The notes under the pieces were generated by a model, which made no database searches, was not told where the DNA came from, and was given only the letters and a program-made list of their open reading frames with translations. Below are positions 2,385-8,766 of a stretch of DNA of 29,728 nt, in pieces (positions within the stretch are counted from its first letter, which is position 1; each line of letters starts with the position of its first letter). The DNA comes from a virus, in IMG/VR virus record IMGVR_UViG_3300026083_000350, positions 1-29,728 of that record; one strand, 5' to 3'. A program made the position numbers and the translations under genes.

Positions 2385-2764
2385 TAAATAAATTTATAGG
2401 TATAGGTAATTTAACAAAAGATCCTGAAAGCAAAAAGCTTGGAGAATATTTTAAATGCAATTTTGCAATAGCAATCAATTCCACAAAAGATGAAGTTATA
2501 TTCCTTGATGTGGAATCTTGGGGTAAGACAGCTGAAAATTGTCAAAAATTTATAAAAAAAGGTTCTCAAGTTTATGTTGAAGGGAAGATAAAAATTAGTA
2601 AATGGGAAGACAAAAATGGAAACAAAAAGCAAAAGTACTACATTAACGCAGACCTTGTAAGATTTCTTCAAAAAGACAAAAAGGCTGCGGAAGAAAAAGT
2701 TTCAGCCCCAGAACCGTCTGCAAATGTAAAAGAAATAGTTAATGAAGAAGAAATGCCTTTTTAA
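2381..2764 (+). CDS. ssb: Single-stranded DNA-binding protein
   Basis: A 127-residue SSB that coats single-stranded DNA in replication and recombination. The OB fold opens with MINKFIGIGNLTKDPE, followed by the typical F.v.vW-like strand (residues 42-48, FLDVESW), then AENCQKFIKKGSQVYVEGKI (51-70) and W.DKNGNKK. A low-complexity linker leads to the acidic tip EEEMPF, the docking peptide that bacterial SSBs use to recruit partner proteins. The start overlaps the sigma gene by four bases. An AAAGGAG at 2361-2367 lies 13 bases upstream of the ATG, longer than ideal. The stop TAA shares its last base with the ATG of the next gene. Confidence 0.93.
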   Translation: MINKFIGIGNLTKDPESKKLGEYFKCNFAIAINSTKDEVIFLDVESWGKTAENCQKFIKKGSQVYVEGKIKISKWEDKNGNKKQKYYINADLVRFLQKDKKAAEEKVSAPEPSANVKEIVNEEEMPF

Positions 2765-3849
2765 TGAAAAGAATTAATTACAATGGCCCTATAAACCCAT
2801 TAAGTTTTGGGAACGTATCTTACAATATACTAAAACAACTTTATAAAAAAAATATTGAAGTATGTTTTTTTCCAATGGGTAATAATTTAGATTTTTCTGC
2901 ATTTGATAAAGCTAGTGAAGATTTTAAAAAATGGGTTTACAAATGCTACGAAGATAGATACAAAAACCTTTCTCCAGATTCACCAGCGTTGCGTATGTGG
3001 CACATAAATGGTTCTGATACAAGGTATTCCAAGCGTCAATTTTTATACACATTCTATGAATGCGACAAACCTACCGAAACAGAATTAAACCTTTGCAACT
3101 ATCAAGATAAAACTATCTTCAGTAGCTCTCATGCAAATGAGGTTTTTTCTAAAAATGGCTGTAATAATTCCTGCTTTATTCCGATAGGGTTCGACGAAGA
3201 CTTTTATGAAACTGGAAAAACTTATTTAGAAAATAAAATAAATTTTGGATTAGTCGGCAAGTTTGAAAAAAGAAAACATACCGCAAGAATCTTGAAATTA
3301 TGGGCTGACAAATATGGAAATAATAAAAAATATCAGCTCACATGTTCAATAACCAATCCATTTTTCAAAAAAGAACAGCAAAACTCCCTGATACTTAAAG
3401 CTCTAGATGGTAATCTGTATAACAATATAAATTTTCTTCCGTTTGTTAAAACAAATACAGAAATGAACGAGGTTTACAACGCTATAGATATTAACCTCAG
3501 CGGCCTTAGTGGGGCAGAGGGATGGAATCTTCCAGCTTTTAATTCTTCCTGTTTAGGTAAATGGAGTATTGTATTAAATTCTACCTCCCATAAGGATTGG
3601 GCTAATAATGATAATGCAATCATAGTTGATCCAACTGAGCAAACAGATATTTATGACGACATATTTTTTACCAAAGGTCAAGATTACAATCAAGGAAGTA
3701 TGTCATGCTTTTCAGACGATGATTTTTACAAAGCATGTGAAATTGCTGAAAATAAAATTGGCAAAAAAAACACAAAAGGGATAGAACTTATCAAAGAGTT
3801 TAATTATAATAAAACCGTAGATAAAATATTAGAATTAATGCAATCATGA
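2764..3849 (+). CDS. GT4-like glycosyltransferase (GT-B fold)
   Basis: A 361-residue soluble protein resembling family 4 glycosyltransferases, which transfer a sugar from a nucleotide donor with a two-Rossmann GT-B fold. N-terminal acceptor-side pattern NGPINPLSFGNVSYNILKQL (7-26). The linker FIPIGFDEDFY (138-148) and start of the donor domain INFGLVGKFEKRKH (159-172) are typical. The donor motif is AEGWNLPAFNSSCLGKWSIV (251-270), equivalent to 'E.FGLP..EA......': the first Glu is kept (E252), while the second is not obvious. It sits directly after ssb with a TAATG overlap. The acceptor (host envelope glycan, phage protein or phage DNA) cannot be read from sequence. Confidence 0.72.
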   Translation: MKRINYNGPINPLSFGNVSYNILKQLYKKNIEVCFFPMGNNLDFSAFDKASEDFKKWVYKCYEDRYKNLSPDSPALRMWHINGSDTRYSKRQFLYTFYECDKPTETELNLCNYQDKTIFSSSHANEVFSKNGCNNSCFIPIGFDEDFYETGKTYLENKINFGLVGKFEKRKHTARILKLWADKYGNNKKYQLTCSITNPFFKKEQQNSLILKALDGNLYNNINFLPFVKTNTEMNEVYNAIDINLSGLSGAEGWNLPAFNSSCLGKWSIVLNSTSHKDWANNDNAIIVDPTEQTDIYDDIFFTKGQDYNQGSMSCFSDDDFYKACEIAENKIGKKNTKGIELIKEFNYNKTVDKILELMQS

Positions 3850-4742: not shown

Positions 4743-5288
4743 ATGAGTATACAAATCTATAAACCAAATAAAGATAATACAGGATTCGGCTTTTCCTTTA
4801 GCTTAGGCAAAGATAAAAAAAGTGGTGATCCAGTTATGTTTGTCAATGCTATAGCTCAATACTCTTGGAATAACGGAGTAGGTTCATTTCAAAAAAATTC
4901 TGAAAATCCAGATAAAAATATATCTGTTAAATTCAATGAATTTGAATGTGGTTCAATTATATCTTGTATAAAAGAAAGATATGAATGGAACACTTTCCAC
5001 CAAAGCAAAGAGAACAAAACAACCATTAGATTAACACCATGGGATAAAGTTGTTACAGTGCAAAAGTTTGACCCTAAAACTAAAAGTTACGAAGCTTCCA
5101 AGCAAAAAGTTCCAGCCTTTGGAATGACTATGACAAAGAATGGGAATCAAACTTTTAAAATTTCATTAGACCCAGGTGAATGCGAGTGCATAGTAAGGTT
5201 TTTAGAGCTTTTGTTAGGTAAGTTATATACTCACAGAATAAATAAAGCAGCGAAAAACAGCAAGACCATAGAGCCCTTTGATGCCTAA
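4743..5288 (+). CDS. Beta-rich phage protein, possible ssDNA-binding fold
   Basis: A 181-residue protein of unknown function. It alternates strands and turns: GFGFSFSLG (13-21), MFVNAIAQYSWN (32-43), then NISVKFNEFECGSIISCIKE (59-78), IRLTPW (94-99), FGMTMTK (125-131) and FKISLDPGECECIVRFLELL (137-156). Two 'strand, then FE/GE + helix' units resemble PC4/Whirly-type single-stranded nucleic acid binders, but no diagnostic motif confirms this. It lies between the FmdB-like gene and a glycosyltransferase, one base after the former's stop. The protein is well conserved in character (aromatic and charged) and clearly coding. Confidence 0.55.
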   Translation: MSIQIYKPNKDNTGFGFSFSLGKDKKSGDPVMFVNAIAQYSWNNGVGSFQKNSENPDKNISVKFNEFECGSIISCIKERYEWNTFHQSKENKTTIRLTPWDKVVTVQKFDPKTKSYEASKQKVPAFGMTMTKNGNQTFKISLDPGECECIVRFLELLLGKLYTHRINKAAKNSKTIEPFDA

Positions 5289-7200
5289 AAAGAAAAAAAT
5301 ATTATTCCACAGTAATCACAGTAAAGCTTTTACGGGGTTTGGTAAAAACTGTAAGAATGTACTTACATACCTACACAAGACAGGAAAATACGAAATAATT
5401 GAAGCTGCCAATGGGTTTGTTAAAAGCAACCCTGCTTTAAAAAAAATGCCTTGGAAGTGTGTTGGGACTTTACCAGATGATCCAGTTAGACTTTCCCAAT
5501 TAAATAAAGATCCCAATTTAGCTAGAGCTGCATCTTATGGTGGAGAAACAATCGATTCTTTAATCAAAGAATTTAAGCCTGATATTTATGTTGGAGCCGA
5601 AGACATATGGGGCTTTAATAAGTATTGGGAGAAAAAATGGTGGAATAAAACAAATTGCATGATATGGACAACGCTTGATTCGGAACCAATCCTTCCTCTT
5701 GCAATTGAAGCTGCGGATCATGTTAAAAATTATTTTTGCTGGGCTAGTTTTGCTGAAAAAAATATGCATAAAATTGGCTTCAAGCATGTTAAGACTCTTA
5801 GAGGAATAGTTGAGAGCAAGCATTTTTATAAACTACCTCAAGAAGATAAAACTAAATTAAGGGAAAAATTTAAAATAGACAGTAATTGTTTTCTTATAGG
5901 TTTTGTTTTTAGGAATCAATTAAGGAAAAGCGTCCCAAACTTACTAGATGGATTTAAAAAATTTTGCGATGAGAATCCCAATCTAAATACTAAACTGTTA
6001 CTACACACAAGCTGGGCAGAAGGATGGGATATCCCTAGACTTATAAAAGAAAAAGGTATAGATGAATTTAAGATACTGACCACTTATTTTTGTAATAAAT
6101 GTAAAAATTATGAAATAAAACCTTTTTCAGGGCAAGAAAAAGATTGCAGATTTTGCAAAAGTGAAAAGTCTCAAAATACAATTACGGCAGCGCATGGTGT
6201 ATCTGAAAAACAATTAAATGAAATTTATAACTTAATGGATGTTTATTGTCATCCTTTTACTTCAGGAGGCCAAGAGATACCAATACAAGAAGCTAAACTT
6301 GTTGAGCTGATAACACTTGTAACAAATTACAGTTGCGGAGAAGATCACTGCACCAAAGAAAGTGGCGGTCTTCCTCTTGATTGGTCAGAATATAGAGAAC
6401 CTGGAACTCAATTTATAAAAGCCAGCACCTCTCCATTTAGTATTTGTGAGCAGCTAAATAAGGTTTACAAAATGGATGTTTTAGAAAAACAGGAAATGGG
6501 ATTTCGATCAAGACAATTTGTTATAGAAAATTATTCTACTGAGACTATAGGGTCAAAGTTAGAAGATATTTTTAACGAAATGGATTTCTGTGATTGGGAC
6601 TTCGATTTTGAAGAAAAACCCAGAAACCCTAATTACAAACCTAATGAAAATCTTAGTGATTCTGATTGGCTGGTTGATATATATAAGAATATATTAAATA
6701 TGGATGTAGACCCATCTTCAGATAAAGGTCATCAGCATTGGATGAAAAAGATAAAAGAAAACTTTTCTAGAAAAAAAATATTAAATTATTTCAAGGAAAT
6801 AGCTACAAAAGAAAACGAAGAAATTTTCAACAAAAAAACAATAGAGGACTACCTAGAAGGAGACTCTCCAAATAATAGAGTTGCAGTTGTAATGCCTGGT
6901 AGCGCTGGCGATGTTTTAATGGTCAACGCCTTGATTGATAATTTAAAATCTTTATACCCTGACAAAGATATATATTTTATAACAAAACCAGTATTTTATC
7001 CCTTAATAGAAGATAATGAAAACATTTTTAAATTAATACCTTACCATGAAAGTTATGATAGTTTACTTACGCTAGAAGGTTCTGCTGGACACGAAGGTTA
7101 TTTCGAGATCGCTTACCTACCTCATATAGGAACTCAAAAAGTTTTAAATTACGTTCACAACGGAAAAGACAAAATGCAAATTGAATTATATGAAAATTGA
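5281..7200 (+). CDS. Fusion glycosyltransferase: GT4 + DUF4214 + N-terminal half of GT9
   Basis: A 639-residue multidomain protein. Residues 1-430 are a GT-B family 4-like glycosyltransferase, with FHSNHSKAFTGFGKN (9-23) at the start and the donor motif HPFTSGGQEIPIQEAKLVE (324-342). A zinc-ribbon-like insert, CNKC (271-274) and CRFC (289-292), sits inside the donor domain. Residues about 458-515 resemble DUF4214 (YKNILN...DKGHQHWMKKI...FSRKKIL). Residues 533-639 are the start of a GT9 heptosyltransferase-type domain: VAVVMPGSAGDVLMVNALID, then IYFITK. The protein ends before the GT9 donor-binding half, which is encoded at 7576-8766. The ATG at 5281 overlaps the previous stop by eight bases; a TTG one codon earlier (5278) is less likely. 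Confidence 0.8.
   Translation: MPKKKKILFHSNHSKAFTGFGKNCKNVLTYLHKTGKYEIIEAANGFVKSNPALKKMPWKCVGTLPDDPVRLSQLNKDPNLARAASYGGETIDSLIKEFKPDIYVGAEDIWGFNKYWEKKWWNKTNCMIWTTLDSEPILPLAIEAADHVKNYFCWASFAEKNMHKIGFKHVKTLRGIVESKHFYKLPQEDKTKLREKFKIDSNCFLIGFVFRNQLRKSVPNLLDGFKKFCDENPNLNTKLLLHTSWAEGWDIPRLIKEKGIDEFKILTTYFCNKCKNYEIKPFSGQEKDCRFCKSEKSQNTITAAHGVSEKQLNEIYNLMDVYCHPFTSGGQEIPIQEAKLVELITLVTNYSCGEDHCTKESGGLPLDWSEYREPGTQFIKASTSPFSICEQLNKVYKMDVLEKQEMGFRSRQFVIENYSTETIGSKLEDIFNEMDFCDWDFDFEEKPRNPNYKPNENLSDSDWLVDIYKNILNMDVDPSSDKGHQHWMKKIKENFSRKKILNYFKEIATKENEEIFNKKTIEDYLEGDSPNNRVAVVMPGSAGDVLMVNALIDNLKSLYPDKDIYFITKPVFYPLIEDNENIFKLIPYHESYDSLLTLEGSAGHEGYFEIAYLPHIGTQKVLNYVHNGKDKMQIELYEN
6091..6156 (+). other. Zinc-ribbon-like insert in GT4 domain
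   Basis: Codes for CNKC and CRFC separated by 14 residues, the spacing of a four-cysteine zinc knuckle, inserted in the donor-binding half of the GT4-like domain. A structural zinc is inferred. Confidence 0.6.
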
Positions 7201-7579
7201 AACACCAATATCTGTAGGAGAATTTTTAGATAAAATATCTATACTTAAGATCAAATCTTTTAAAATAAAAGATGAAGAGAAACTTAAAAACATAAAATTT
7301 GAACTAGAGCATCTCAATAAAATATTAGAAGAAAAACTTTCTGATTATGAATACCTTAAAAAAAGAGGTGATGAGCTTTATCAAGTAAACACTTCTCTTT
7401 GGAACATAGAAGATAAAATAAGAGAATGTGAAAGAAAAAAACAGTTTGATTCAGATTTTATATTTCTAGCTAGGTCAGTCTATATAACAAATGATAAAAG
7501 ATTTGAAATTAAAAATAAAATAAACGAAGAATGCGGCTCAAATTTTAAAGAAGAAAAATCCTACGAAGATTATAAATGA
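7190..7579 (+). CDS. DUF6165 family protein
   Basis: A 129-residue, largely helical protein. It matches my recollection of DUF6165 throughout: IETPISVGEFLDKISILKIK near the start, EKLKNIKFELEHLNKIL, NTSLWNIEDKIRECERKKQF in the middle, FIFLARSVYITNDKRFEIKN, and the closing EEKSYEDYK. DUF6165 has no established activity; in my knowledge it is found near glycan biosynthesis genes. The ATG at 7190 overlaps the fusion glycosyltransferase by 11 bases (a TTG at 7181 is also possible), and its TGA overlaps the ATG of the GT9 C-terminal gene. It therefore sits exactly between two parts of one enzyme family and may help the parts assemble, or may simply have been inserted there. Confidence 0.8.
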   Translation: MKIETPISVGEFLDKISILKIKSFKIKDEEKLKNIKFELEHLNKILEEKLSDYEYLKKRGDELYQVNTSLWNIEDKIRECERKKQFDSDFIFLARSVYITNDKRFEIKNKINEECGSNFKEEKSYEDYK

Positions 7580-8766
7580 GTCATCTGATAGAAGAATACG
7601 CGAAATCATTAGGTGTCAAAATAGGTAAGCCTACCCTAGACCACCACTTTTTCCCTATATTAAAAGATAAATATATAACTTTTCATACAAACAATGAAAA
7701 AGTTAAAGCTAAACATTATGATCATTGGCGTATAGTTTTTAATCTAATTTCTGAATTTTTAGAAAGAGAGGGTGTATCTATAATTCAAGTAGGAGGGGCT
7801 GAAGATCCTCACTTATCTTTTTGCCACCAAGATACAAGAGGTGCATCTTTTAAGCAGATGGCTTATGTCATAGAAAACTCTTTATTGCACCTTGGTATTG
7901 ATAGCCTTCCTATGCATATGGCTAGTCTTTATGATAAAAAAATAGTCGCATTGTTTTCTAATATTTACATAGAAAATGCATCACCTATATGGAACAGAAA
8001 AAATCAAATTAAACTCTTTAGCCCAGATTTCTCTGAAGAAAAACCGTCTTTTAGATTTGATGAAAATATCAAAAGAGTAAATGAAATCAAACCAGAAGAG
8101 GTAGGCGCAGCAGTTTTAGGATTACTTGGGATAGAAAATGATCTATCTGATATAAAGACATTAAGCATAGGATATCATTATCAAAATAAAATTACTGAAA
8201 TCATTCCAGACTTCATACCAAAAGCAGATGAATATAGAGATAAATTAATAAATTTAAGATGTGATTATGACTTGATAGAAGAATCATTAATCAAATGGTT
8301 AACAAGAAAAACCAACTTAATGATTAATAAACCTATAGACATAAACACCATCAACTTTTTTAAAGAAAATATAGCTGGCCTAACCATATTTTTAGGAGAA
8401 AATGATTTCAACGAAGAGTATTTCGAAAACTTAAATAAGTTAAATATAAATTTCAATCTAATATCGAGGCATAAAGATAAGCTGCCTGATCTGCGTTTGC
8501 AGTTTTTTGATTACACTATTGAAGAATATGTCAACTACTTTAAAAAAGATCTTGACTTTACTTCAGAAATATGCGATGATACATGCTATCACAGTAATAA
8601 AACCTTAATATCAAAAAATAAAAAGTACAGCAGTAAAGCAGCATGGAAACAAGGAATAGAAACAACCCAGGAGCATCAAAAAATTATTGATACTGATGAT
8701 TTTTGGGAAGAGTTCCAACACCTAAACATATATAATTATGCCAAGAACAAAAAACTCAGATACTAA
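7576..8766 (+). CDS. C-terminal half of a GT9 (heptosyltransferase-like) enzyme with extra domain
   Basis: A 396-residue protein whose first part matches the donor-binding half of GT9 glycosyltransferases: HWRIVFNLISEFLEREGVSI (50-69) IQVGG, then FKQMAYVIENSLLHLGIDSL (92-111) PMHMAS, equivalent to the 'lig.adl.iG.DtG..HlAa' site of WaaC/WaaF. Residues 1-30 (HLIEEYAKSLGV) look like the end of the GT9 N-terminal domain. The GT9 start (GDVL motif) is missing here and is found at the end of the 5281-7200 protein. Residues about 190-396 form an extra alpha/beta segment I do not recognise (GYHYQNKITEIIPDFIP; LTIFLGENDFNEEYFENLNK). The ATG overlaps DUF6165 (ATGA). It overlaps the next gene by 29 bases. 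Confidence 0.78.
   Translation: MSHLIEEYAKSLGVKIGKPTLDHHFFPILKDKYITFHTNNEKVKAKHYDHWRIVFNLISEFLEREGVSIIQVGGAEDPHLSFCHQDTRGASFKQMAYVIENSLLHLGIDSLPMHMASLYDKKIVALFSNIYIENASPIWNRKNQIKLFSPDFSEEKPSFRFDENIKRVNEIKPEEVGAAVLGLLGIENDLSDIKTLSIGYHYQNKITEIIPDFIPKADEYRDKLINLRCDYDLIEESLIKWLTRKTNLMINKPIDINTINFFKENIAGLTIFLGENDFNEEYFENLNKLNINFNLISRHKDKLPDLRLQFFDYTIEEYVNYFKKDLDFTSEICDDTCYHSNKTLISKNKKYSSKAAWKQGIETTQEHQKIIDTDDFWEEFQHLNIYNYAKNKKLRY

Follow-up and report, generated by a model that had tools for sequence, protein, structure and literature searches.

A GT9-type glycosyltransferase divided between two genes in uncultured phages, with its acceptor-side half fused to a GT4 domain

In GT9 and other GT-B glycosyltransferases, the acceptor is bound by the N-terminal domain and the nucleotide sugar by the C-terminal domain, as in WaaC. 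Alg14/Alg13 has these two roles on two polypeptides, one binding the acceptor and the other the donor, which build a single active site together (PMC8993221). Together with bacterial EpsE/EpsF, Alg14/Alg13 belongs to a set of two-subunit, GT1/GT28-related transferases of GlcNAc or Gal/Glc, most of which split after one ancient event (PMC8993221). The phage locus described here resembles Alg14/Alg13 in that a GT-B enzyme is split at the boundary of its acceptor and donor domains, but it differs in several respects. The phage enzyme belongs to GT9 rather than to GT28 or GT1, its N half shares a polypeptide with another glycosyltransferase, of the GT4 type, and its C half carries an extension of about 205 residues. 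Moreover, it is phage-encoded, with other genes inserted at the junction and no re-fusion seen in the loci studied. WaaC, WaaF, the Veillonella GT9 protein of structure 3tov, and TibC share with the phage halves their fold and the SxGD and GxD....H motifs, yet each of these enzymes is a single chain.

The window, that is, the whole stretch of DNA analysed, is a 29.7 kb IMG/VR virus record assembled as a metagenomic contig. It contains three overlapping genes on the plus strand (Table 1), the first of which can start at a TTG at 5278 or an ATG at 5281. The overlaps measure 11 bases (7190-7200) and 4 bases (7576-7579), with the DUF6165 gene in the middle, as a preliminary description made from the sequence had reported. 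Also correct in that description was the fusion of the first GT9 half to a GT4 enzyme, since the upstream protein matches phrog_2170 across residues 4-434 (E 5e-15) and Pfam Glycos_transf_1 at E 2.6e-5, slightly below the cut-off. The GT4 domain contains a zinc-ribbon-like insert of the form C-x2-C...C-x2-C (FCNKCKNYEIKPFSGQEKDCRFC), common to loci L004-L007 and L198.

Table 1. Genes, domains and motifs of the locus, in window coordinates
Feature	Positions	Strand	Evidence or remark
GT4-GT9N gene	5281..7200	+	640-residue protein
GT4-type glycosyltransferase domain, phrog_2170-like	5281..6642	+	N-terminal part of the 640-residue protein
DUF4214-like linker, GT4 to GT9N	6643..6798	+	PF13946, E 1.5e-4, 22.2 bits (cut-off 23.2)
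GT9N, N-terminal (acceptor-side) Rossmann half of GT9	6853..7197	+	AlphaFold2 model, profile and structure matches
Conserved Asp, SAGD motif	6910..6912	+	Invariant in 54 aligned N halves
DUF6165 gene in junction slot	7190..7579	+	PF19662, 31.3 bits (cut-off 27)
GT9C gene	7576..8766	+	396-residue protein
GT9C core: last N-domain helix (MSHLIEEYAKSLGV) and C-terminal (donor-side) Rossmann half	7576..8136	+	PF01075, AlphaFold2 model, structural matches
Donor-site motif GxD....H (Asp109, His114)	7900..7917	+	Invariant columns
C-terminal extension of GT9C, about 205 residues	8137..8763	+	AlphaFold2 pLDDT mostly about 87-97

The C-terminal 107 or so residues of the upstream protein, here called GT9N, form half of a heptosyltransferase-type GT-B enzyme. 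Searched by itself, the upstream half has no GT9 match in Pfam. Family profiles were built from 54 relatives of each half and run against all solved structures, and the best matches of the GT9N profile are GT9 structures (3tov 8-65, E 0.011; 1psw, which is WaaF, 2-56, E 0.057). AlphaFold2 models were built from the family alignments, with the N and C halves folded separately. The GT9N model (pLDDT 79, with a low-confidence, poorly ordered tail from residue 94) aligns to 1psw 1-119 (Z 7.0) and to 3tov 5-155, and its top six structural matches are all GT9 entries (the N-terminal domains of 3tov, WaaC and WaaF), with Z of 6.8-7.3, values that are modest alone but gain force from the presence of GT9 entries at the head of the ranking and from the agreement with the sequence profile. 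By motif, the conserved Asp of GT9N occupies the position of WaaC Asp13, a catalytic residue in that enzyme.

The downstream half, the GT9C core, scores 27.7 bits against PF01075 (cut-off 22; profile positions 98-229 of 247), a profile matched by 47 of 54 GT9C family members at the E-value limit used, and the GT9C family profile finds 1psw 243-311 (E 0.001) and, weakly, 3tov 211-299 (E 0.59) among solved structures. The model (pLDDT 92) aligns to 1psw 128-345 (Z 15.6) and 3tov 133-344 (Z 16.1); its top eight structural matches are all GT9, the C-terminal half of WaaC also giving Z of 15-16. The lysine-bearing donor loop of WaaC, however, is not clearly kept in the phage protein. The preliminary description had placed the GT9 donor site at the start of this protein, and rightly so, but the GT9 piece occupies residues 1-187 only, the remainder being an extra domain. 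This C-terminal extension lies beyond the GT9 match and is present across the split loci, and it was not seen in single-ORF GT9 relatives of about 300 residues, which matched only the profile core. Among the PDB matches listed for GT9C none covers the extension, which is not evidence of a new fold because a single domain accounts for that list.

Modelled separately, the two halves thus point to the same GT9 structures, each to a different and complementary part, and together cover WaaF of E. coli with about 8 residues left over. By structure and profile comparison, the two halves lack no substantial part of the GT9 core and repeat none. The GT9 is broken close to its domain boundary, immediately ahead of the final helix (HLxExYAxxxG) of the N-terminal domain. 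(In an alignment with an intact GT9, MAFFT misplaced the HLxExYA helix of rows holding only the C half, and this alignment was left out of the modelling.) The GT9 domains reside in separate genes, not in one polypeptide, both in the window and in all 117 split loci found among viral contigs, and the division of GT9 into two genes, as first proposed from the window alone, is real. Its assignment to GT9 families rests on profile and fold for both halves and, for the C half, on Pfam as well.

Viral contigs were scanned with the N half and the C half, and the loci were classified by HMM. The GT9 is split at the same point in 117 of 119 loci with distinct N halves, far beyond chance, and is intact in two (L008/L183 and L100), both with different domain architectures. 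Because the window is a metagenomic contig, an assembly or sequencing artefact or a decayed gene might be suspected, but the same split occurs in more than 100 contigs with varied junctions, and dN/dS is low; the related loci have already refuted this explanation, and we give it practically no credence. Wherever enough sequence is available, the upstream protein has the length of a GT4-GT9N fusion. GT4-GT9N proteins fall into two main length classes, of about 560-580 and 630-645 residues, the longer of which may be the one that carries the DUF4214-like linker. In the nearest set read in detail (L004-L007, of which L005 ends inside GT9C), the locus is flanked by the genes that also flank it in the window; L004 is 82-86% identical and has DUF6165, whereas L005-L007 are without it, their GT9N and GT9C genes overlapping by 14 bases.

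Cultured phage records contain no relative of the GT4-GT9N protein of the window or of GT9N, only weak 22% matches to GT9C in Campylobacter phages and, for the version in L082, nothing more than a remote GT4 match in Synechococcus phage S-CBS4. A genome collection gave one match, L101 (CAJQLD010000083.1), binned in a Flavobacteriaceae metagenome-assembled genome, which is a weak hint at a host; its GT9 halves are near-identical to those of phage contigs L014 and L015. Open-literature text searches, covering part of the literature, returned no report of a split GT9.

At the junction itself, no gene stands between the halves in 92 of 117 split loci, and these empty junctions range from a 14-base overlap to a 14-base gap (a single base, TAAT, in L042) while the split point stays constant. 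Many of them overlap by 4-14 bases with the halves in different frames, an arrangement that might allow ribosomal frameshifting or read-through to yield a full-length protein, in which case the split would be only apparent. Such an explanation is very improbable, as junction lengths vary between -14 and +14 bases and share no frame relation, many loci have the start codon placed after the stop, and one or more separate genes intervene in the window and 24 other distinct loci. The junctions are varied but mostly tight, at both ends of DUF6165 in the window as well, which suggests that translation of the genes may be coupled.

What occupies the junction in the other 25 loci, each with one or more genes, bears on the role of DUF6165, which the preliminary description placed between the halves of an interrupted ancestral GT9 and perhaps saw as their partner. 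DUF6165 fills the slot in 22 loci (21 flagged by HMM, and the window), a cupin gene in L034 and L045, two small ORFs of unknown function in L020, and an FkbM-type methyltransferase gene in L198. Since 92 of the 117 junctions are empty, only 22 hold DUF6165 and others hold different genes, the split is independent of DUF6165, and the junction is best described as an optional cargo slot; an interruption of the GT9 gene by DUF6165 is not supported. Nor does it appear to be a needed partner, as 12 of 12 sampled records without a slot copy have none anywhere in the record, with the proviso that records may be fragments, and as the gene is present in many other phage sugar operons. It is common in phages (406 candidate loci), where it also lies beside epimerase, GT2, methyltransferase and nucleotidyltransferase genes.

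DUF6165 could still be imagined as an essential third subunit, a bridge that first interrupted and now joins the halves, given its exact position between them with overlaps at both ends, the purifying selection on it (dN/dS of the window copy is 0.15 against L012), and its frequent occurrence immediately after an intact GT9 gene in other phages. The many loci with no insert, the sampled records without any copy, the use of the same slot by other genes, and the occurrence of DUF6165 beside epimerase, GT2 and methyltransferase genes nevertheless make a bridge highly unlikely. Because the slot is often empty and DUF6165 is common elsewhere, DUF6165 is best read as a glycan-operon accessory rather than the cause or bridge of the split. 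Seven loci (L110, L114, L136, L144, L158, L164 and L178) show it directly 3' of a GT9-like frame with an overlap of a few bases, much as in the window; in these pairs, however, the GT9 is a single ORF and no GT9 piece was found after DUF6165. They suggest a GT9-DUF6165 partnership that is general among phages. In a tree of concatenated proteins the DUF6165 state changes at least 4 times, each change readable as gain or loss, and the DUF6165 tree accommodates both repeated insertion and one insertion with losses; DUF6165 in the slot may be of one origin.

Whether the halves still work as one enzyme can be approached through their evolution. In all estimable close pairs dN/dS is about 0.3 or less and mostly below 0.2 for both halves, several pairs having saturated synonymous sites, and for the C-terminal extension of GT9C it is 0.04; judged by these ratios, both halves are under strong purifying selection. 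Among the split loci, 115 of 117 N halves retain the PxSxxD motif with its Asp, and all 117 C halves retain GxD....H. For 45 loci below 85% identity, pairwise divergences were compared between the GT4 region, GT9N, and the core and extension of the C half. GT9N has a partial correlation of 0.59 with the C core, as against -0.06 with the GT4 region to which it is joined and -0.03 with the extension, and the N-C value exceeded the N-GT4 value in 300 of 300 subsamples. Such correlated divergence is to be expected of a single functional unit encoded by two genes, and it could partly arise from joint inheritance or recombination of adjacent DNA. Taken together, purifying selection, kept motifs and correlated divergence lend indirect support to the view that both halves still function together.

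These data also weigh on the possibility that the halves are no longer one enzyme, with GT9N left to the GT4 as a domain for binding or tethering only and GT9C acting by itself or with a different partner. In its favour, both halves are complete Rossmann folds that could exist independently, the extra domain of GT9C is large, and splitting can free halves for a change of role; on the other hand, the Asp at the catalytic position of the N half and the donor motif of the C half are kept in nearly all loci, GT9N diverges in step with the C core and not with the GT4, and the halves are always adjacent in the 117 loci. Separate roles for the halves are, on this balance, unlikely.

The explanation we favour, and hold to be probable, is that of a putative two-subunit GT9 resembling Alg14/Alg13, with the acceptor half fused to a GT4, probably coupled translation and an optional junction slot. 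The N-terminal acceptor-side Rossmann domain is carried at the C-terminus of the GT4, and the donor-side domain belongs to another protein, which has an extra domain of its own. Both are most likely products of coupled translation and would associate, as Alg14 and Alg13 do, so that the active site lies in a cleft formed by the two. The GT4 would probably transfer a first sugar and the GT9 tethered to it a second, to a glycan acceptor for which host envelope, virion and DNA are candidates. The split is old in this phage group, and the junction slot has received DUF6165, cupin, FkbM methyltransferase or other small genes. Against the two-subunit reading stand the weakness of the GT9N model in the very tail (residues 94-115) that would be expected to touch GT9C, and the result that the N half by itself obtains no GT9 score in Pfam.

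More tentatively, the loci may represent an obligate two-subunit GT9 family of uncultured phages, in which the GT4-borne acceptor half physically links two sugar transfers, the donor half carries a new domain, and the gene boundary accepts glycan-modifying genes while the operon stays intact. If true, this would be a viral, GT9 counterpart of the Alg14/Alg13 split, stable over deep divergence, and a natural test system for a GT-B enzyme working as two chains. It also suggests that accessory genes can dock at the boundary between the two parts of a split enzyme gene.

The nearest unsplit relative of GT9N in the scans is L008 (IMGVR_UViG_3300003358_000005), about 36-38% identical to the half in the window, where a phage GT9 followed by a GT2 domain lies downstream of a GT4 gene. 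The order of GT4 then GT9 is the same as in the window, but the GT9 is in one piece, with GT2 at its C-terminus and no extension of the GT9C type. The GT4 of L008 (3229-5820) bears a large intein-like insert starting CFSPDTDIMTKEG (a weak HINT match) and is interrupted by a single in-frame stop ahead of the GT9-GT2 part (5820/5830). The window itself has a second GT4-like gene at 2764-3849, also phrog_2170, upstream of the GT4-GT9N gene and adjoining a gene for a single-strand binding protein (SSB) at 2381-2764. An SSB gene near the operon suggests early expression, which fits glycosylation of envelope, virion or DNA alike.
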